29,255 bases of DNA. Origin: a virus. The position numbers and the translations under genes are program-made. Numbering within the stretch: the first letter of the stretch is position 1; each line of letters opens with the position of its first letter. The notes beneath the pieces are model-generated. The model made no database searches and was not told where the DNA came from. It saw nothing but the letters and a program-made list of their open reading frames with translations. Below, piece by piece: positions 1 through 26,841 of the stretch. The DNA is taken from positions 1 to 29,255 of IMG/VR virus record IMGVR_UViG_3300031974_005143. One strand, written 5' to 3'.

Positions 1-2493
1 TCCAAAGTGACCGATATGTCTGACATGTTCTATCAGACGGACTTTTCGGTGCAGAATTATGATCGATTACTCATTAGCTGGTCTGGTTTGGCAGCTCTTC
101 AGAGTGACATCACCATGGGTGCGCATGGGCTCAGTTATTGTCTGGGAGCAGATGCCCATCAAAGTCTCGTTGATACTTATGGCTGGACTATAGCAGGAGA
201 TAGTAGGCGTTGTGATTTTGACGATTTTGGAGGAAGAAGTGGGTCGGTTGCACTACAAATAGGGGGAGAAGCATTTTTAGGTTTGGGAAAAAATGATTCC
301 ATTTATTTTGGAGACTGGCTCAATATTTCATCAGGGTTGGATTCAGTGGCAGGTTTTCCAGGCGTGGCACGGTCATCTGCGGTCGCTTTCGTGATTGATT
401 CTTTGGCTTATGTGGGGTTGGGGATAGATGAGGACGGCAATTATTTATCGGACTTTTATAGCTACAGTCCTGCTCAGGATTTGTGGACCCCAATAGCCGA
501 TTTCGGGGGTGGTGCCCGTACCAATGCTGTAGCCTTTTCAGTCGCTCAGCAGGGTTATGTGGGCACAGGCAAGAACAGTGAGGGGGAGCAATCAGATTTT
601 TGGAAGTACGACCCGGTTACCAATGTGTGGACAGAGTTACCGGACTGGGGGAGTGATAAACGTCAGGGTGCTTTTTCTTTTGTGATTGGGGATAAAGCCT
701 ATGTAGGGGGTGGGTACTATTTCGATGGCTTTCAGTCTCAGCTGTCGGATATTCAGGAGTTTGATCCCGCTGAAGAAACGTGGACAGAGAAAATATTCGC
801 AGATGGACTCAACTTAAGTGTCAATGATGCTGCGGCTTTTTCTCTTTTTGGTCAGGGATACATTGCTTATGGAAGTAAGAGCAACCTCATTAAGTATGAT
901 CCCCGAACCAATGAGGTAGAGAATCTCGGAGATTATTTTGAGCTCGGGGCTAACCTGACTGATCCCATAGCTTATACAGTTGGTGATTTTGCCTATTTTG
1001 GATTGGGACGTCATGGTTTTTCTCCTACCGAATATGCCAATGGCTTTGAGATATACTTTGAGCCCAATGAGCTCCCTTCTGATATTTCGTTATCCGACAG
1101 TACTATTGAAGAGAATACCTCGCCAGCCACTTTGATTGGAGTACTATCTTCAGTTGATACGGATGCATGGGGAGAACACGAGTATACCTTAATAGGGAGC
1201 ACTGCGAAGGATACTTTTCTTATCTCCAACGATTCGCTTTTTGCCAATCAGGCACTGAATTATGAAGTACAAGACGAGTATTCCATTACCATTCAGGTAA
1301 GGGATGATAGAGGGGGAATTTATCAAAAGCTATTTCACATTCAAGTAGAAGACATAAACGATGCGCCATCGATGATTTCACTATCAGATTCTTTGGTTAC
1401 TGAGTCAAATACAGAGGTTATTCAGGTGGGGAGTTTGGCTGCAATGGATGAGGACGTTTCCGATGAATTCACCTTTCAATTGGTCTCAGGGGATGGCGAG
1501 AATGATGCTGATAATGATCATTTTGAGGTGGATGGAAATGTGCTGAACATTGTTAATCCCAATTTTGAAGCTCAACAAATTCACAGGGTATATATCGAGG
1601 TGGTCGATTTGGGTGGTCTTTCGTTTCGTCAGGCGTTTGAAATAAGCGTTGAGGACACGCCGGAACCACCATTTGATATGAGCCTATCAAATTTGGAGGT
1701 GATGGAAGATAATGACACTACGGTTTTTGTTGGTGTTATTTCTGTTTCTGATGAGGACACCGATGATACCCATCTATTCACCATTAGAACTCAGGTGGGT
1801 TCTTCATATAGTCATCGATTTGAAATTAAGGGTAACGAATTGAGTATTCTCAATCCTGATTTTGAAGAGCAGTCAACTTTTGAGGTACTATTGGAGGCTG
1901 TGGATCAGGTGGGACTAGCCTGTCAGAAGACATTCGAGATTAAGGTGCTCAATAGAAATGAGCCCCCTCTGGCGATTTCACTTGAGACGCATGTTCTACT
2001 GGATGGCAATGCGGAAATTGGAACAGAAGTGGGGACTCTTGATACTCAGGATGAAGATTTGGATGATGAGTTTATATATGTTTTGTCAAAAGCCTCGGAT
2101 TTTTTCGAAATAGTAGATAATAAACTCCGAATTAAAAGTCCTTTCAACAAATCTGTCAGCGATGAGACTCATTCCGTTGAGGTGGTGTCTACTGACTTGG
2201 GAGGCCTGTCTGTGGCAGATAGCTTTGAAATTGTTGTTTTTGGTGTACCACTTTCGATACCTGGAAAGATTCCGACTGAGATTTTTCCCAACCCGGTTGA
2301 GAATGAGTTTTCCATTCATCTGAATGGGGAGGCTGTATTAGAAATTTTCTCTTTGAATGGAGCAAAACTGTCGAGTCAGACATTGTCAGAGGGCAATCAT
2401 TTGATAGATGTATCAGATTTAAAAAAAGGGGTGTATGTAATATGTCTGTTGTCAAATCAAAGTAAGGAGCACATCAGATTCATTAAGCAATAG
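1..2493 (+). CDS. Kelch/cadherin-repeat surface protein with T9SS C-terminal sorting domain (5' truncated)
   Basis: Large secreted surface protein, probably exported and anchored by the type IX secretion system. The reading frame is open to the left edge of the window, so the GTG at 7 is unlikely to be the true start and the signal peptide lies outside. Roughly the first 350 residues hold Kelch-like propeller repeats (recurrent AYVGLG/GYVGTG blades followed by Y/FDP..W). About residues 353-750 hold four cadherin-like repeats, each opening with a P..ISLSD-type strand and carrying DEDxxD acidic sites that would bind calcium. The last 70 residues, from IPTEIFPNPVENEF, form a typical type A T9SS sorting domain with the PNP motif. 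Ligand and role are unknown; adhesion is a family-based inference. Confidence 0.88.
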   Translation, partial: SKVTDMSDMFYQTDFSVQNYDRLLISWSGLAALQSDITMGAHGLSYCLGADAHQSLVDTYGWTIAGDSRRCDFDDFGGRSGSVALQIGGEAFLGLGKNDSIYFGDWLNISSGLDSVAGFPGVARSSAVAFVIDSLAYVGLGIDEDGNYLSDFYSYSPAQDLWTPIADFGGGARTNAVAFSVAQQGYVGTGKNSEGEQSDFWKYDPVTNVWTELPDWGSDKRQGAFSFVIGDKAYVGGGYYFDGFQSQLSDIQEFDPAEETWTEKIFADGLNLSVNDAAAFSLFGQGYIAYGSKSNLIKYDPRTNEVENLGDYFELGANLTDPIAYTVGDFAYFGLGRHGFSPTEYANGFEIYFEPNELPSDISLSDSTIEENTSPATLIGVLSSVDTDAWGEHEYTLIGSTAKDTFLISNDSLFANQALNYEVQDEYSITIQVRDDRGGIYQKLFHIQVEDINDAPSMISLSDSLVTESNTEVIQVGSLAAMDEDVSDEFTFQLVSGDGENDADNDHFEVDGNVLNIVNPNFEAQQIHRVYIEVVDLGGLSFRQAFEISVEDTPEPPFDMSLSNLEVMEDNDTTVFVGVISVSDEDTDDTHLFTIRTQVGSSYSHRFEIKGNELSILNPDFEEQSTFEVLLEAVDQVGLACQKTFEIKVLNRNEPPLAISLETHVLLDGNAEIGTEVGTLDTQDEDLDDEFIYVLSKASDFFEIVDNKLRIKSPFNKSVSDETHSVEVVSTDLGGLSVADSFEIVVFGVPLSIPGKIPTEIFPNPVENEFSIHLNGEAVLEIFSLNGAKLSSQTLSEGNHLIDVSDLKKGVYVICLLSNQSKEHIRFIKQ

Positions 2494-12566: not shown

Positions 12567-13193
12567 TCATCCGTTGATTATCCTGTTAAAGTCCTCAAAA
12601 TCCATGTCCGACTTAGCCTGAATTACGTAGGGCTGAACCCTGATACTATTGGCTGGGAAGCGGGGGAAATCAAAATCCTTGATGCTGATCTTTTGCACGT
12701 TGTAGAGATCTGTTATATAGCTCCTCAGATATACCACCCCTTCATGTTCGCATATCCGTCGGATATTCCGTATTTGTGTTTCCGGATAGTCATTCTCCTC
12801 TTCATTGATCGCTAATCCCCTGATTGTGATTTGATAATCCTTAAGCCCACGCTCCTCGGTCACTGTACCACGTCCTTTGCCTCTTCTTATGGAAGTCTCT
12901 TTGATCATCTTACCACCAGAGAGCGACATAATAGGCTCGTTTGGTAGCTGCCAATGATTAGTCGGGTTGGTGCCTATTTTGATGGGAAGAAAGTAACTTC
13001 CTCCTTGTGGGCTTTGAAAGTTGAACTCACCTTTAAGCGGTGGATCATTAACCACTCCGGGAGTGATTTTCATGCCCTCAAAATCTCCACCCTCCCGAAT
13101 AGATCCTTTTCCGAATGGCCCTGGAAAGGGAAGCCCAACCCCAGATCCAAAAGCCTGGGTGTATAGTCGATATATGTCAAATGCTATAGCCAT
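12567..13193 (-). CDS. DUF6046-like tail protein
   Basis: A 208-residue protein resembling the DUF6046 family of Bacteroidota phage tails: LPIKIGTNP..HWQLPNEPIMSLSGGKMIKETSIRRGKGRGTVTEERGLKDYQITIRG is the family's central signature. It lies between tape measure and hub genes, the place of Mu gpN or LysM-type gp53 tail proteins, so it may connect the tape measure to the hub. It overlaps the tape measure stop by one base (TAATG coupling). No enzyme motif is visible. Confidence 0.65.
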   Translation of the reverse strand: MAIAFDIYRLYTQAFGSGVGLPFPGPFGKGSIREGGDFEGMKITPGVVNDPPLKGEFNFQSPQGGSYFLPIKIGTNPTNHWQLPNEPIMSLSGGKMIKETSIRRGKGRGTVTEERGLKDYQITIRGLAINEEENDYPETQIRNIRRICEHEGVVYLRSYITDLYNVQKISIKDFDFPRFPANSIRVQPYVIQAKSDMDFEDFNRIING

Positions 13194-14893
13194 TATCCAC
13201 CTATTGCTGTTTGAAGTCCACCCCTTAAAAGCCTTACGAAGAATTCCCTCATTTTTGGCTCGAGTTGATCTAGTCCTTCGCTTAAATCCTGAGCTGTGAT
13301 GTCGATATTCTCAGCAAATTTGATTCCCCCTTGAAAATTGATAGTGACAGATTTACCACCCCCGGCCGTAATGCCATCAATTCCAGAACTTATATTACTA
13401 TCAACACCGCCTCCGTTTCCATTGGCATCCCCATTATTACCAGATCCTCCCGGTTCTTTTTTTGTGCCACTTAGCCCGGCTATTTCCTTTTCAAGAGCTT
13501 CAATTAATCCATCTTTCCCGGTTATACCGCTTAGATTACCTCTTAGGTCATTGATTTCTTGATCTGAGAATCTCTTGATAAAAGTGAAGTACTCACCTTG
13601 CTGCCTTCGCTGCTCGCGAACACCACCATAAGCAGCTATTTCATTGAGGGTATTGGTGATCCTGGACGCATCAGCTTGCAGATCCTTGATTTGATCTCTT
13701 TTCTCTTCAATTAGATCCTTATTTAAAAGCTTCAAAGCCTCCTTAGAATAGGTAATATTTTCCTTGAGTTTGGTAGTGCTCAGCCCGATGGCCTCCCCAT
13801 ATTTATTCCACTTGGTCACCGCTGATGGGATGGCCCCAGCCAACTGCTCTGTGATTTTCTTTACCTCTACTTGTTCATCCTTATTGAGTTTTGCTTTACC
13901 CGTTAGCTCCTCATATCTTTTTATGAGTGGCACAGTATCGCCCTCTAGTCTTTTGACTTTATCGGTTTGCTCCTTGTACTTCTGGCCTAGTGATTTGTTT
14001 GCCTCGATTAATCGATCGGTTGTTTTTATGAGACCTTCCAAAGAAGGGGTCAATATTCTATTCACCGAATCCCCATACCCTTCAGCCAGCAATCCCAGTT
14101 TTCCGGTAAGTGTACTTACCTTACCTCCAAACGTGGCAGATTGCTTTTCCATTAGGTTAAAGAAAAGACCACCTTCCTTGGTCATATTCTGAAATGCCTT
14201 CTCGATATGGGCAAATCCAACCTTTCCTTCACTTGCCAATTTTTTGACCTGATCGGATTGTACCCCCATAATCTCGGCCAGCTCGGTAAATATTGGGATA
14301 CCCCGGCCAGCCAACTGGTTCAGATCCTCAGAGTATACCGTTTGCTGAACTTTGATCTTACCGTAGATCTCTGAAAGTTCGTTGAACGGTATATTGAGTC
14401 CAGCGGCAACATCACCAAGATTTCTAAGTGTTGGTATTAGCTTCTCTGTAGTAATACCAAAGGCCAGAAGGTTCCTGCCGGACGTAACGACCTCATCATT
14501 GGTGAATGGAGTGACATTCGCAAACTGGTTTAAGTCAGCTATGCTCGAATTTGCCCGTTCAGCAGAACCAAGCATGGTTTCAAAACTTACCCTCGTTTGC
14601 TCTGCCCTGGCTCCAGCATCTGATAGGGTTTTACCAAATGTCAATAGGGCAGTGACTGTTAAAACTCCAGCAATTGCCCCCTTCAGCCCACCGAATATTT
14701 TGCTCAGACCAAATCCCTTTCGGCCAGTCCGATCAAACTCATTACCCAATCGCTTGGACTTTCGTTCAGCACGTCCCATTTCTTTACTTACCTGCTCAGT
14801 CTTATTATCCAACACGCCGAATTCCCTTGCCAATTTCTTAGCGTTGTTAATGGCTCTGTCTTTAAACTCAACTAAGTATTCGTAAGCTTTCAT
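13193..14893 (-). CDS. Tail tape measure protein
   Basis: A 566-residue protein that sets tail length and is ejected with DNA. The first 90 residues are basic, coiled-coil-like (VEFKDRAINNAKKLAREFG, RAERKSKRLGNEFDRTGRKG), followed by a hydrophobic segment (GAIAGVLTVTALLTFGKTL). Then comes the tape-measure core repeated in siphoviruses and myoviruses: VSFETMLGSAERANSSIADLNQFANVTPFTNDEVV... Residues 290-480 are long helices, with a Gly/Asn-rich linker near residue 500 before a C-terminal beta segment. Short for a myovirus, so a short tail is expected. It starts inside the stop codon of the frameshift extension ORF (ATGA). Confidence 0.88.
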   Translation of the reverse strand: MKAYEYLVEFKDRAINNAKKLAREFGVLDNKTEQVSKEMGRAERKSKRLGNEFDRTGRKGFGLSKIFGGLKGAIAGVLTVTALLTFGKTLSDAGARAEQTRVSFETMLGSAERANSSIADLNQFANVTPFTNDEVVTSGRNLLAFGITTEKLIPTLRNLGDVAAGLNIPFNELSEIYGKIKVQQTVYSEDLNQLAGRGIPIFTELAEIMGVQSDQVKKLASEGKVGFAHIEKAFQNMTKEGGLFFNLMEKQSATFGGKVSTLTGKLGLLAEGYGDSVNRILTPSLEGLIKTTDRLIEANKSLGQKYKEQTDKVKRLEGDTVPLIKRYEELTGKAKLNKDEQVEVKKITEQLAGAIPSAVTKWNKYGEAIGLSTTKLKENITYSKEALKLLNKDLIEEKRDQIKDLQADASRITNTLNEIAAYGGVREQRRQQGEYFTFIKRFSDQEINDLRGNLSGITGKDGLIEALEKEIAGLSGTKKEPGGSGNNGDANGNGGGVDSNISSGIDGITAGGGKSVTINFQGGIKFAENIDITAQDLSEGLDQLEPKMREFFVRLLRGGLQTAIGG

Positions 14894-15042
14894 TTCAGTT
14901 TCAGTAGATTTTGGATCTCATTCAGACTATTGTCCTTTTCTAAGTTTCTGAGCTTGTTAATGATCTCAAATTTGGCAGCTAGTGTGTAGTCATCGAGCTT
15001 GCTTACATCTATGTGCAAGTAATACTCCACTGTGGTTTCCAT
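14890..15042 (-). CDS. Small C-terminal ORF of tail assembly chaperone (frameshift extension)
   Basis: A 50-codon ORF (METTVEYYLHIDVSKLDDY ...) between the chaperone and tape measure genes. It may be translated alone from the ATG at 15042, but its frame is open back to the slippery site at 15087-15093, giving 15 additional residues (ALEAASERRWSPLLE) and a 249-residue fusion. Its sequence is helical and charged, as in gpT/gpE-like extensions. It overlaps the tape measure start by ATGA. No separate family name applies. Confidence 0.78.
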   Translation of the reverse strand: METTVEYYLHIDVSKLDDYTLAAKFEIINKLRNLEKDNSLNEIQNLLKLK

Positions 15043-15080
15043 CTCCAGGAGCGGAGACCACCGCCGTTCACTCGCTGCCT

Positions 15081-15638
15081 CTAAAGCTTTTTTACCGCTA
15101 CGTAGGCTTTATCTTTTACCTTATTGGTTCCTCGAAGCATCCCCAGATAAGCCCTGGTATTCTTCTTAACTTCACTTAGCCGCTCCTGATCGACACAGAT
15201 GGATTTAAGCAGATAAACAGCGGTCATAAACGGTTCGCCTTTGTCATTGCGATTTTCAGCAGCAAGAATATCGGCACGTTTTGCTCCTCTTACCCTGAGC
15301 ACTTCCCCTTCACTGGATATCTCAAAATGTGTATCCTTATGCTCAACTCTAAAGTCAGGAAGCTCTGCCAGTTGATCCAGTTGATCAGCCAGGCCATTGC
15401 CATAGCTTTCATCTGTCTTGAGTTCGGCATCACCATCGAGCCAGCAGTTATTTAGATACGTCACGGCCATTCCAATCGCCCCGGCTTTTTCTAATGCTGC
15501 AAACGCTTGCTTAACCGTGAGGAAATCGGAAAGCGGATCTTTGATATAAGCTTTCTTTCCATCATCAGTTTCTAATAGAAAAACGGAACCATGTTCCTTT
15601 TTCCACTTATCAATTTGGGCTTGAGTTACTTCTTTCAT
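15081..15638 (-). CDS. Tail assembly chaperone, zero-frame (gpG-like) product
   Basis: A 185-residue helical charged protein (MKEVTQAQIDKWKKEHGSVF...). It lies between the tail tube and tape measure genes, the position of the gpG chaperone that binds the tape measure. Its last codons are GTA AAA AAG CTT TAG, carrying the A_AAA_AAG slippery heptamer two codons before the stop. A -1 shift replaces the last residue with a 65-residue extension ending at 14890, which is the gpGT-type product. Both forms are expected in a fixed ratio. Its leader carries the 19-base motif shared with the sheath gene. Confidence 0.82.
   Translation of the reverse strand: MKEVTQAQIDKWKKEHGSVFLLETDDGKKAYIKDPLSDFLTVKQAFAALEKAGAIGMAVTYLNNCWLDGDAELKTDESYGNGLADQLDQLAELPDFRVEHKDTHFEISSEGEVLRVRGAKRADILAAENRNDKGEPFMTAVYLLKSICVDQERLSEVKKNTRAYLGMLRGTNKVKDKAYVAVKKL
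15087..15093 (-). promoter_or_regulatory. Programmed -1 ribosomal frameshift site (A_AAA_AAG)
   Basis: On the minus strand the zero frame reads gtA AAA AAG ctt tag, the canonical X_XXY_YYZ heptamer also used by dnaX. Slipping by -1 continues GCT TTA GAG ... with no stop until 14890. A possible stimulatory stem about 25 bases downstream pairs 15032-15036 with 15057-15061 and 15043-15046 with 15053-15056; a GCGG/CCGC stem lies slightly nearer. Confidence 0.87.
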
Positions 15639-15647
15639 TTTTTCTGT

Positions 15648-15666
15648 TGATTTAATAGGTGTTAAA
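15648..15666 (-). repeat. 19-base leader motif, copy 1 (before chaperone gene)
   Basis: Minus strand TTTAACACCTATTAAATCA, ending about 10 bases before the ATG at 15638. It is repeated with one mismatch before the sheath gene at 17282-17300. It partly overlaps the tail tube stop codon. Probably a shared translation or promoter element. Confidence 0.5.
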
Positions 15667-16081
15667 CATCGTACTCGATTTTCAAGGCCATCCCGGTGAG
15701 GTTGATCACCATTTTGGTATCGCCTTGGTTCCAGCCTTTTGGGAGTGAGCCAACACTAACTCCCCGGAGAATATCCGTAACCCTGGGATCGCCGATATTC
15801 TTAGCATAGTGAACCACCACATCAAAGCTGATGTCTGTGAGATCTTCAGCCCCCTGTGCCTTTGCAGATCTGTTCATTGCCTCAATCTCTGATTGGTTCA
15901 TTCCTATTTCAATAGGATAATCCTTATTCCCCTTTTGGATAGAATGTGGATCGTCACCAGCTCCATAGTTGGCTTCCAGGTTGCGGTTTACTGTGTACTG
16001 AACCGACTGTATTTCGGTGATGGTTCTGCCAGCCGCAACGACTGACATATCACGCCATGCGTATTCTTCTTTACCTGCCAT
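15662..16081 (-). CDS. Tail tube protein
   Basis: A 139-residue protein that polymerises inside the sheath. It contains the tube-like pattern NRNLEANYGAGDDPHSIQKGNKDYPIEIGMNQSEIEAM, matching the G-x-x-P-x-x-x-x-x-G loop and following helix of Bacteroidota phage tubes. It ends with a beta strand, VINLTGMALKIEYDV. It is directly downstream of the sheath gene (2-base gap) and upstream of the chaperone, the invariant sheath-tube-chaperone-tape measure order. Length is normal for a myovirus tube. Confidence 0.75.
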   Translation of the reverse strand: MAGKEEYAWRDMSVVAAGRTITEIQSVQYTVNRNLEANYGAGDDPHSIQKGNKDYPIEIGMNQSEIEAMNRSAKAQGAEDLTDISFDVVVHYAKNIGDPRVTDILRGVSVGSLPKGWNQGDTKMVINLTGMALKIEYDV

Positions 16082-16083
16082 GT

Positions 16084-17274
16084 TTAGCTATTTTGAGGGT
16101 TTTCAAATCCAAGGTTTACTTCTATGAATGAGCTGTATCCTTTTGGTCTTACAGCCAGTTTGGCAATCTCCACCTTATTGGTAGCGAGTACATTTTGCTC
16201 AGCATTGATTTCGACCACTACAGGGTTTTGGGATGCCAGGTTGTCAACCATGGCCAGCTCCAGAGCATTCTTTATCTTTGCTTGATAATCCTTCACCACG
16301 GCTGGGGCTATATAGCCCTCCTCATCAATGTCAATATCATCCTCAATCTCCTCGATGAAAGTGGCGTAGGTAATTCTGATCGCCTTATCAATTACTCTAC
16401 CTCTGGCCAGACTGGAAAAGTCATCAGCCGGAGATACACAGGCCGGGTCAGAGCTAAAGTAGTATCCGGCCTTATTCTGGATAGTCCTGAAAAAGATGCA
16501 GCCTTTATCATGCAATGCATCCATAGAGGCCTCATAAGTCTCGATGGTTTCACCATCTGTTAGATAAGCTGTTGACTTGCCAATGTCTCCATCCTTTACC
16601 CGACTGATTTTTCTTTGTACTGGTATACTCGCGAACCTTCCTAGCGTAAATCCAATGGCCGGATGACCATTATCGGTTAGTGACCCGATCACCACGCCTA
16701 CATGACCGTTGGTGTTTTGGGTAAAATCCTTCAGCCCTCCAATATCAGATTGAAAGTCCCGTGCACCAATCAATGCCCGGCATGGATTAAAGCTATCTGA
16801 AAACTCCTCACACAATGCATCCGCTTTCAATACTGCCGCATCAACATCATCGTCCAGACCATCCACATAGGTAGGTTCATATGCTACATCCGGGATTCGG
16901 TGAATGCCCCACATTTTCACACGGCCACCAGCTGCATTAAGTAGTTTCTTTACAACATTACCTGTCTTATCACAGGCACTTTCCATTGTGGTAGTCGCTG
17001 GTATGATCATCACCCATAGCTCTGTCCCCTTCGGTGCCTGATCATAAAAATCAACGATCTGCTGATAAGAATCTACCGTGTTGTCAGTATCATAGTCAGC
17101 GTCAATACCGATAGCCTCAGCATCTTCTATCCTAAAGATGGCTTTTGGTGTACTAATTGCCAGCCCAGATGGAGCGGGGCCGGCCATAACCAGCCCCATG
17201 ATTCCATCATCAACAGAAACCGAAGCCCCAAGCCCGTCGGTTTTTACGTTAATATCTATACCAGGTAATGCCAT
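16084..17274 (-). CDS. Contractile tail sheath protein
   Basis: A 396-residue protein forming the contracting sheath. It fits the DUF2586-like/sheath family: ALPGIDINVKTDGLG at the start, a central portion with ALIGARDFQSDIGGLKDFTQNTNGHVGVVIGSLTDNGHPAIGF, and a C-terminal domain with FRTIQNKAGYYFSSDPACVSPADDFSSLARGRVIDKAIR, matching the C-terminal arm used for sheath interlocking. Mu gpL is longer (about 495). It lies after a hairpin and shares the leader motif with the chaperone gene. It shows the phage is a myovirus. Confidence 0.83.
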   Translation of the reverse strand: MALPGIDINVKTDGLGASVSVDDGIMGLVMAGPAPSGLAISTPKAIFRIEDAEAIGIDADYDTDNTVDSYQQIVDFYDQAPKGTELWVMIIPATTTMESACDKTGNVVKKLLNAAGGRVKMWGIHRIPDVAYEPTYVDGLDDDVDAAVLKADALCEEFSDSFNPCRALIGARDFQSDIGGLKDFTQNTNGHVGVVIGSLTDNGHPAIGFTLGRFASIPVQRKISRVKDGDIGKSTAYLTDGETIETYEASMDALHDKGCIFFRTIQNKAGYYFSSDPACVSPADDFSSLARGRVIDKAIRITYATFIEEIEDDIDIDEEGYIAPAVVKDYQAKIKNALELAMVDNLASQNPVVVEINAEQNVLATNKVEIAKLAVRPKGYSSFIEVNLGFENPQNS

Positions 17275-24234: not shown

Positions 24235-26841
24235 ATGAGCGGCTCAATCATATCCAAACTACGGAACATGCTTCCAACATGGAAGCCCTTTCAGGTCAGC
24301 GAAAAACTAGTAGACCCCAACAACACTAAAAAGAAGCGGGTCAGCTACCAAATAAAAACCAATAGACGACTTAGGTTCGATGTAGAGCAGGACGATCTGA
24401 AGACGGCACTCATGCACGCCCTTGACGAGATAGATCCCCGACGGGAAATGCTACTCGAAGTGTACCGGGAAGCCAAGAGGGATTTACGACTTCTGGCACA
24501 GTGTCAAAACGGAATTGATGACGTGATACAAGCTGGCTGGGGTTGGTTCAACGATGAGACTGGAGAGCTAAATGAAGACGTTACCAAGCTATTCCAAAAG
24601 CAGTGGTTTGAAAAGGCGATGACAGTCAAGCTCTGGGAAGAGTTTGAAGGCTACAAGCTATTGGAGTTGGGGCAAATGATCCTAACCGAGAATGGTTGGG
24701 AGTTCAAAAAGGTGAAAGAGTTCCCAATGGAAAACGTTCTACCAGAAAGAGGGCTGTTGATCGCACACCCACAAGCTGCCAATGGCGTGCCTTACCGGCC
24801 AGAGGATTACCCCGACGATAAAGACAAGCAAAGGCTTGCTGAGGCCTTTAGTGAATGGCTGGTAGAATGCGGAGATCCGGAAAGTCTCGGACTGTTTGCT
24901 GTAGCAGCTAAAAACAGCATCTACAAGAAGTGGGGACTTGGGGATTGGTGTAGAAGCTCCGAAAAATGGATTGACCCATTCCTTGTCATAAGATCAGGCA
25001 CAGATGATCAAACAGAGAATGACAAAAAAGCCAAAATGGCCGGTGAATTTGGCAATAACAGTTGGGCGATTTTGGATGATCAGGACGAGATAGATCTTGT
25101 GGAACGCAAAAACGCCAACGGTTATACCATCACTAAAGATTTGCTCGATTACCTTGATACAGAAAACGCCATAGGGATCAACGGACAATCAGCCACTGCA
25201 AATGATCAAGCATGGTCAGGTTCAAGCGAAGTACAAGAGCGTACCCAAATCAAGCGATCCCGAAGAAGATTGAGACATCTTATGTATTGGGTCAACGAAA
25301 CACTTAAACCCAAATTAATGGCTGTAAACGGAGGCGATACAGCCTATAAGGTCATTGAAGGTCATAGTTGGAAACCTCTATCACTCCTGGAAGAGGATGA
25401 TGCCGAATCAACAGATCCTGATCAAAGCGACGATCCAAAGGAAAACGGAAACCCAAAAAACAAATCAAAGGGCAAGCGGGCTGGGGGTACCGCCGTGGGA
25501 AAGTCGAACGGGTTAGGGTATCATATTGAAATCTCTAACCTCTATGCTTTTGACACTCATGGTCATATCGATCACCGTCCCTACAATAGTTCGACTCTTG
25601 AAAGGCTGGCTGAAAAGATGGCCGAAAAGGTACAGGCTCAGGTCATCAAGCCCGGTCAGGTAGATAATAATCTAACCGAAGCGCAGGCAAAGGAATTATT
25701 GACCGCCCTGCGCGGAGGATACGAAAAAACCCTTAAATCCGTGGTGTTCGCTTCTCCTGAGCATCGGATAAAAGTGCAGCTAGAGCATAACATATATGTG
25801 ATGGCTGCATTCAAGAACCATCAGAATGTATTGGACATTCATGATCTGTTATTGGATAGTGAGGGTAAAATCAAATCAAAGAGCCAGTTCCTGAAGGATG
25901 TCCAAGGGGTCAACAAAGACTACAACGTACATTGGGCAGCTACCGAATGGAGGCTTGCCAGGGGACAGGCTCAAATGGCCGATAAATACCTGTTGTACAA
26001 AGATCGAGGTGGATCATTCGTATACCAATCAATGAATGATGGACATGTGCGCCCCGAGCATGAAAAGCTTCACGGCCTTACCGCCCCAGTGGATCATCCA
26101 ATTTGGGATCAGATCCTGCCGAAAAACGGATATGGGTGTAGATGCTTCTTTAGATGGATCAGCAAGGTGATCACCAACATCAGTAAAGCCGCTGAGGAAT
26201 TCGCAGATAACCTACCAGCCATATGGAAAAACAATGCTGGGAAATCTGGTCGGGTATTCAGCGAGGATCATCCATACTTTGAGGTAGCAAAAAAGTATGT
26301 AGAGAAAGCTCAGAAGCTTTTCGGGTTCAAACCTCCGGTTAATCTGGAGCGGTTCAATCATAACCTTGCACTGTATGAAACCCTGAAAGATTCAAAGGAT
26401 CATGAGTTGTTAAGCGCAGTACTGGACACCGGAGGTTTTTTGTTCCGGCATAAGAATTTTGACAAAAAGGACTACTTCCTCAATAAGAAGGCAGCAGATC
26501 GACTCGCTAAAAATGGTTATGCTGTGGAGATCCGGGAGCATGTAAGCACGGAAGGTATTCCTAATCCAGAGCTGACGATATCAGGTACAATAAGCGATCT
26601 GAAGACTCCCGAGAAAATCGGGGGCATCAAGTCGGCTTTCTCTAATGCCAAAAAACAAGGCATTGATACCGTAGTGGTCAAACTGAATAACGGATGGGAT
26701 GTAGAGGCCATTAGGAAAAAAGTGGATGATGGCTTTCATTTCAACGACACCATTGATATGGTTTACCTCCTATTTAAAGGGGAAGTAATAGAGATTACAA
26801 GAATGGAGTGGTTGGATGGTCAGCTGTATAAAATAAAATAA
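24235..26841 (+). CDS. Portal (Gp29/DUF935-like) + MuF head protein + CdiA-type tRNase-like C-terminal domain, one polypeptide
   Basis: An 868-residue triple fusion. Residues 1-385 are a DUF935/Mu gp29-like portal (DEIDPRREMLLEVYREAKRD, QKQWFEKAM, NAIGINGQSATANDQAWSGS). A low-complexity charged linker (385-425) follows. Residues 425-690 are a MuF/gp30-like head morphogenesis domain with AATEWRLARGQAQ near 567 and the DGHVRPEHEKLHG...NGYGCRCFFRW signature at 600-640. Residues 700-868 resemble the CdiA C-terminal tRNA nuclease domain: DRLAKNGYAVEIREH, then NPELTISGTISDLKTP (PD-(D/E)xK-like), AKKQGIDTVVVKLNN, and VYLLFKGEVIEITR. In Mu these parts are separate or lack the toxin. No antitoxin gene is evident beside it. 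Confidence 0.85.
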   Translation: MSGSIISKLRNMLPTWKPFQVSEKLVDPNNTKKKRVSYQIKTNRRLRFDVEQDDLKTALMHALDEIDPRREMLLEVYREAKRDLRLLAQCQNGIDDVIQAGWGWFNDETGELNEDVTKLFQKQWFEKAMTVKLWEEFEGYKLLELGQMILTENGWEFKKVKEFPMENVLPERGLLIAHPQAANGVPYRPEDYPDDKDKQRLAEAFSEWLVECGDPESLGLFAVAAKNSIYKKWGLGDWCRSSEKWIDPFLVIRSGTDDQTENDKKAKMAGEFGNNSWAILDDQDEIDLVERKNANGYTITKDLLDYLDTENAIGINGQSATANDQAWSGSSEVQERTQIKRSRRRLRHLMYWVNETLKPKLMAVNGGDTAYKVIEGHSWKPLSLLEEDDAESTDPDQSDDPKENGNPKNKSKGKRAGGTAVGKSNGLGYHIEISNLYAFDTHGHIDHRPYNSSTLERLAEKMAEKVQAQVIKPGQVDNNLTEAQAKELLTALRGGYEKTLKSVVFASPEHRIKVQLEHNIYVMAAFKNHQNVLDIHDLLLDSEGKIKSKSQFLKDVQGVNKDYNVHWAATEWRLARGQAQMADKYLLYKDRGGSFVYQSMNDGHVRPEHEKLHGLTAPVDHPIWDQILPKNGYGCRCFFRWISKVITNISKAAEEFADNLPAIWKNNAGKSGRVFSEDHPYFEVAKKYVEKAQKLFGFKPPVNLERFNHNLALYETLKDSKDHELLSAVLDTGGFLFRHKNFDKKDYFLNKKAADRLAKNGYAVEIREHVSTEGIPNPELTISGTISDLKTPEKIGGIKSAFSNAKKQGIDTVVVKLNNGWDVEAIRKKVDDGFHFNDTIDMVYLLFKGEVIEITRMEWLDGQLYKIK

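Follow-up and report, generated by a model that had tools for sequence, protein, structure and literature searches.

Putative programmed -1 ribosomal frameshifting in the tail assembly chaperone genes of a contractile-tailed phage and its relatives in Bacteroidota

Whether the two short, overlapping reading frames that lie between the tail tube gene and the tape measure gene of the virus record IMGVR_UViG_3300031974_005143 are separate genes, or the two parts of a programmed -1 frameshift that yields a short and a long tail assembly chaperone, is the question raised by this locus, which was analysed within the whole stretch of 29,255 nucleotides (hereafter the window). Frameshifting of this gpG/gpGT type is well known from phage lambda, P2 and others (reviewed in PMC5009743). 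In the window, profile scans place the two frames, here called G and T, within a contractile-tail module, which comprises, on the minus strand, a tail sheath with a DUF2586 domain (16084..17274, phrog_907), a tail tube protein recognised by its position and by its match to the tail protein family phrog_4579 (15662..16081) and a tape measure protein (13193..14893, phrog_9959 and PF20155), and also a baseplate hub. The head genes of this virus resemble those of Mu, with portal and F-like domains.

The upstream frame, G, is an ORF of 185 codons (15081..15638, minus strand) encoding a putative tail assembly chaperone. It ends on the minus strand (15095-15081) with GTA AAA AAG CTT TAG, in which the slippery heptamer A_AAA_AAG occupies 15087..15093, three codons 5' of the G stop and in zero-frame phase with the ORF, just as the sequence-only reading of this locus had stated. 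The other features that it had described are equally present: the -1 frame (GCT TTA GAG and so on) runs open for 65 codons to a TGA at 14892-14890, a 50-codon ORF (14890..15042) is contained within it, its end overlaps the start of the tape measure ORF as ATGA, and the predicted fusion product amounts to 184 + 65 = 249 residues. This extension, T (14890..15087, minus strand; ALEAASERRW...LLKLK), has a single ATG, at which the 50-codon ORF begins, and the latter is probably no separate gene. Since a stop in the T frame lies 25 nt upstream of the G stop, any slip is confined to the last eight or so codons of G, and A_AAA_AAG is the only canonical heptamer within the 25-nt overlap in which both frames are open (15084..15108).

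Judged from comparative evidence, it is very probable that programmed -1 ribosomal frameshifting makes both G and GT in this phage. Most ribosomes would end at the G stop and release the 185-residue G, while a minority would pause with Lys-tRNAs on AAA in the P site and AAG in the A site, slip back by one base so as to pair with AAA AAA, and continue in the -1 frame, which yields the 249-residue GT. By analogy with lambda, the tape measure protein would be coated by the G part that both products share, and the tube subunit would be recruited by the T tail of GT, the rarer of the two. We infer frameshifting in vivo, its efficiency, assistance by a downstream stem and the chaperone action of the products.

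To place the locus among its relatives, the sheath protein was used as bait in viral contigs and bacterial genomes, which gave 111 loci; since the bait was the sheath gene and not the chaperone, possession of the heptamer was no criterion in fetching them. The named bacterial genomes among these loci are nearly all Bacteroidota, and the gene order sheath-tube-G-T-tape measure is conserved in the relatives, in most of which T ends close to the tape measure start. A part of this set served to build profiles of G and T. Matches to both are found in 104 of the sheath-fetched loci and in seven others (two chaperone-fetched loci, four isolate phages and the window itself), and in every one of these 111 loci T is in the -1 frame relative to G, none being fused and none in the +1 frame. 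This includes L056, L099, L100, L103, L104, L113 and L114, where G and T were found by the profile search. Seven sheath-fetched loci do not have both G and T, and six of these are cut by a contig end, L116 being the exception. Removal of loci more than 85% identical left a non-redundant set of 83, to which the counts below refer. L103 and L104 are apparently one sequence that has been binned both as Chlorobiaceae and as Bacteroidales, so that a Chlorobi host is doubtful.

In 44 of the 83 loci (53%), a canonical heptamer of the form X_XXY_YYZ occupies the very position that it has in the window, three codons 5' of the G stop, while the background at other zero-frame sites of G in the non-redundant relatives is 0.66% per site. 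Anywhere inside the overlap, a canonical heptamer occurs in 53 loci compared to 6.8 expected. Some members of the family, including that of the window, possess a second domain in G, which is why G comes in two lengths (about 100 and about 180 residues), and the heptamer is found at the gene end of short and long forms alike. A conserved Lys-Lys peptide could mimic such a heptamer, and for this reason the synonymous positions were tested, with the expectation taken from the codon usage of each locus. In 41 of 42 loci the Lys-Lys or Lys-Asn pair is preceded by an A (12.1 expected), AAA encodes the first Lys in all 42 (24.2 expected) and AAG the second in 35 of 39 (16.6 expected). Selection on the heptamer thus acts at the nucleotide level, which an explanation in terms of the protein only does not foresee. 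These codon tests treat the loci as independent and shared ancestry makes their z-values (6 to 11) too large, although the one-sidedness of the bias is not in doubt. Taken together, the position, the phase, the coding nature of the -1 frame and the conservation of the heptamer across the family strongly support the gpGT-type reading that had been made from the window.

Loss of the heptamer in homologues whose two ORFs stay separate had been named as an outcome that would speak against this reading, and at face value it is found in 30 of the 83 loci, where no canonical heptamer is present in the last 11 codons of G. At the same place, however, 16 loci have GGAAAAG, in phase as G_GAA_AAG, and ten keep only an A-site A_AAG, A_AAC or A_AAA (GGTAAAG, TGTAAAG, AGCAAAG and so on), whereas L068, L073, L088 and L099 have other sites again that belong to neither class. 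Because 26 of the 30 carry a substitute at the same spot under synonymous-site selection, the switch has apparently been kept and not lost. At Glu-Lys sites, all 17 loci have G as the base preceding GAA (6.5 expected), and 16 of the 17 encode Lys as AAG (5.4 expected). Carriers of G_GAA_AAG in the last G codons include L015, L058, L083, L107, L108, L109, L111 and L117. On the sheath tree, the canonical or non-canonical state changes at least 11 times and GGAAAAG requires at least five changes on well-supported branches. The natural reading would be that G_GAA_AAG is itself a slip site. In this regard, a Glu-tRNA (UUC) on GAA in the P site could re-pair with GGA if a G-U pair in the middle position is tolerated, and the authors of PRFect have already put forward, for other phages and in general terms, re-pairing of this kind (PMC10885494). 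The balance leans slightly towards G_GAA_AAG being a working and stable non-canonical -1 site of this type, selected where relatives use A_AAA_AAG and possibly helped by a Shine-Dalgarno-like sequence in hosts whose ribosomes keep the anti-Shine-Dalgarno sequence concealed during initiation. The G end of L068 and L088 has A_AAG_GAG, a possible slip site overlapping a Shine-Dalgarno-like sequence, and their relative L059 has A_AAA_AAG.

The A-rich nature of the site also brings to mind slippage by RNA polymerase, which would add or drop an A within the run so that mixed mRNAs give the fusion protein and no ribosome needs to slip. Such a mechanism is a real alternative in one relative, L011, whose G end (2970-2984) carries a run of nine A, which is long enough. 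The run in the window, on the other hand, is only six A, the longest A-run at the site is four or fewer in 39 of the 83 loci, and sites like G_GGA_AAC, G_GGT_TTT and G_GAA_AAG contain no long homopolymer run. Polymerase slippage would moreover have no need of a frame-tied phase such as that seen in the third base before Lys-Lys, and as an account of the window it is very unlikely.

The -1 frame itself bears on a second alternative, namely that G and T are separate genes, T starting at the ATG at 15042 or by re-initiation coupled to termination of G, with the heptamer being incidental. The window does possess this in-frame ATG, at T codon 16, and T is annotated from a downstream start as a hypothetical gene of its own in Flavobacterium phage lotta8-2, as it is in phage fF4. 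Across the non-redundant set, however, an ATG is absent from the T frame in 82 of 83 loci over the stretch between its upstream stop and the tenth codon after the G stop, and T is devoid of any ATG in 18 and of ATG, GTG and TTG altogether in four. Between the G stop and the first ATG, GTG or TTG, substitution rates in the T frame are 0.077, 0.042 and 0.334 at codon positions 1, 2 and 3, values that are weighted towards clusters of close relatives; a frame-blind alignment with one pair per locus gives 0.20, 0.20 and 0.39 (p about 2e-12). The T frame therefore evolves as coding sequence upstream of any possible start, a result that holds at the level of the family, the window's own relatives being too divergent for a test of the window only, and for which the gapless codon-position test offers too few pairs when split by site class. 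Such protein-level constraint is not what separate genes would give, nor would they account for the synonymous-site constraint on the heptamer, which leaves them with a very small probability as an explanation. That the frames of this single metagenome-derived contig reflect a chance A-run or an assembly error splitting one gene is refuted, and of negligible probability, given that 111 records, isolate phages and bacterial genomes among them, show the same -1 relation.

Returning to programmed frameshifting, the products of T share the motif LRYYLxIDPDxLSDxEWAxxxxxLxxIRxxE, and T of the window is predicted to form a helical hairpin (AlphaFold pLDDT 93.1). It matches no annotated family, and a fold search with T only returned just short uncharacterised phage proteins and chance-level matches. 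L058, L060, L066, L069, L112 and L118 have a T of 82-89 codons, the additional 25 or so codons, relative to other members, lying near its start.

Elements that might stimulate the slip were sought on both sides of the site. Compared with other positions of the respective locus, hairpins anchored 4-9 nt after it are stronger (median percentile 0.19, KS p 5e-9), and in 35% of loci the anchored hairpin is in the top tenth of its own locus. A downstream stem, which the sequence-only reading had thought worth looking for in related prophages, is thus clearer in the family, and also in the window's nearest relatives (L010, L013, L014 and L021), which have near-perfect stems of 8-10 pairs, differing in sequence, 5-8 nt after the heptamer, than in the window, where it is suggestive. 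The window's candidate stimulatory hairpin (15046..15077, minus strand) follows a 9-nt spacer and, at about -11.7 kcal/mol, is in the top 6% of its own locus, but competes with a more distal stem in an unconstrained fold, and the predicted folding of the downstream region does not surpass that of its dinucleotide shuffles (z between 0 and -0.9).

Upstream of the site, a Shine-Dalgarno-like motif is present in 31 of 83 loci compared to 10%, a raw enrichment most of which is due to conserved Lys-Glu-Ala codons; measured against a synonymous-codon null, the 31 loci compare to 22.0 (z 2.9). Strong motifs 11-13 nt upstream number 13 compared to 5.7 expected from synonymous codons (z 3.5), and shifted control windows are mostly lower, two of them reaching z 2.5. 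Examples of AGGAG(G) 11-13 nt upstream of the slip site are found in L013, L070, L080, L088 and L097. Bacteroidota rarely use Shine-Dalgarno sequences. It has been shown that Bacteroidia ribosomes hide their anti-Shine-Dalgarno sequence, and that frameshifting in prfB, which depends on that sequence, nevertheless persists in 72% of Bacteroidia genomes (PMC8710568), so that an upstream stimulator of this kind would be possible; the motif counts are suggestive of one.

With respect to the identity of G, residues 2-92 in the window match phrog_19076 (E 2.4e-15), a family labelled as being of unknown function in PHROGs and matched by all 57 aligned family members, while residues ~93-185 form an extra domain that occurs in the longer members only. 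The AlphaFold model of G (pLDDT 95.5, from a 57-sequence alignment) was compared with known structures by means of VIA-align, in which the N-terminal ~90 residues gave first 3fgx (Z 8.2, rmsd 4.1, 90 aligned), a DUF6848 (PF20941) protein of unknown function, and second the HK97 tail assembly chaperone 2ob9, a weak match (Z 3.9, rmsd 3.5, 72 aligned); identity of G to these two proteins is 11-12%. The predicted fold of G thus suggests a tail assembly chaperone, the resemblance being weak in the case of HK97, and its second domain gave no clear structural match. Sequence searches of the PDB returned weak matches only. Neither G nor T of the window matches any Pfam tail-chaperone family, PF10109 (Phage_TAC_7) and PF06528 (Phage_P2_GpE) included, and they are consequently not filed in those sequence families, although they would work like them. 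Sequence kinship to known tail-chaperone families was also considered for the family as a whole and set aside, as 57 G and 62 T members scanned against Pfam yielded chance-level matches only.

Comparison with known systems supports a parallel with lambda, which had been drawn from position, and with P2. A comparison with lambda, made on gene order, frame and site position, shows that its gpG/gpGT system shares with the window the order tube-G-T-tape measure, a -1 shift near the end of G and a T that overlaps the tape measure start. It differs in its slip site, which is G_GGA_AAG seven codons before the G stop instead of A_AAA_AAG three codons before, and in its longer T (about 140 codons compared to about 55-70 in the window's family). 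P2, with E and E+E', has in common with the window a contractile tail, a short T (about 50 codons), a -1 shift and the tape measure overlap, but uses T_TTT_TTG eight codons, not three, before the stop. One of the 62 family T members touches PF06528 (E 0.085), and a profile comparison of T with P2 E' alone gave no match. The parallel with Mu, which had been drawn together with that to lambda, stands for position but not for the shift: the gp41 region of Mu also lies between tube and tape measure in a phage with a contractile tail, and yet its -1 frame closes 12 codons after gp41 whereas the +1 frame is open for 43, from which it follows that Mu uses another shift. Among the Mu-like head genes of the window, an 868-residue ORF (24235-26841, plus strand) combines a Mu-type portal domain (PF06074) with a Mu F-like domain (PF04233), which are two genes in Mu. 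Within the phylum, AAAAAAG frameshift sites with a stem-loop five nt downstream have been predicted in IS elements of the Bacteroidetes symbiont Amoebophilus asiaticus (PMC3196728); these predictions concern the same heptamer, but in transposase genes.

While the gpG/gpGT kind of frameshift is already known from lambda and P2, the G/T family, its phylum-wide use in Bacteroidota and the G_GAA_AAG variant are new here. A search of the open literature, subscription papers being outside it, found no paper on a tail-chaperone frameshift in Bacteroidota phages, and absence of such a report is therefore unproven. The present reading would assign a function to phrog_19076 and to the T ORF, and suggests that contractile-tailed phages of Bacteroidota in general possess the G/GT switch, which is unannotated in those cultured relatives that were inspected (Winoviridae). 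A_AAA_AAG stands at the window's position in Flavobacterium phages lotta8-2 and FPSV-S27 and in Winogradskyella phage Peternella_1; in Flavobacterium phage fF4 the site is G_GGA_AAG, six codons 5' of the G stop. G is a hypothetical protein in the records of all four, and T is absent from the annotation of FPSV-S27 and Peternella_1. Across the family, a single fixed position is occupied by different sites (A_AAA_AAG, A_AAA_AAC, G_GGA_AAC/G, G_GGT_TTT, G_GAA_AAG and NNN_AAG), and these represent a ready natural panel for determining which heptamers slip on Bacteroidota ribosomes, and for asking if Shine-Dalgarno pairing can stimulate a slip where it rarely guides initiation.

Two further observations concern the surroundings of these genes. 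In fF4 (L128, 6013-6784), an ORF of 195 residues comes after G and T in place of a long tape measure gene, so control of tail length may differ in this phage, or its tape measure gene may be split. At the beginning of the window (7-2493, plus strand), a Kelch/cadherin protein is encoded that carries a Por_Secre_tail type IX secretion sorting domain; it is probably host flank and a pointer to a Bacteroidota host.
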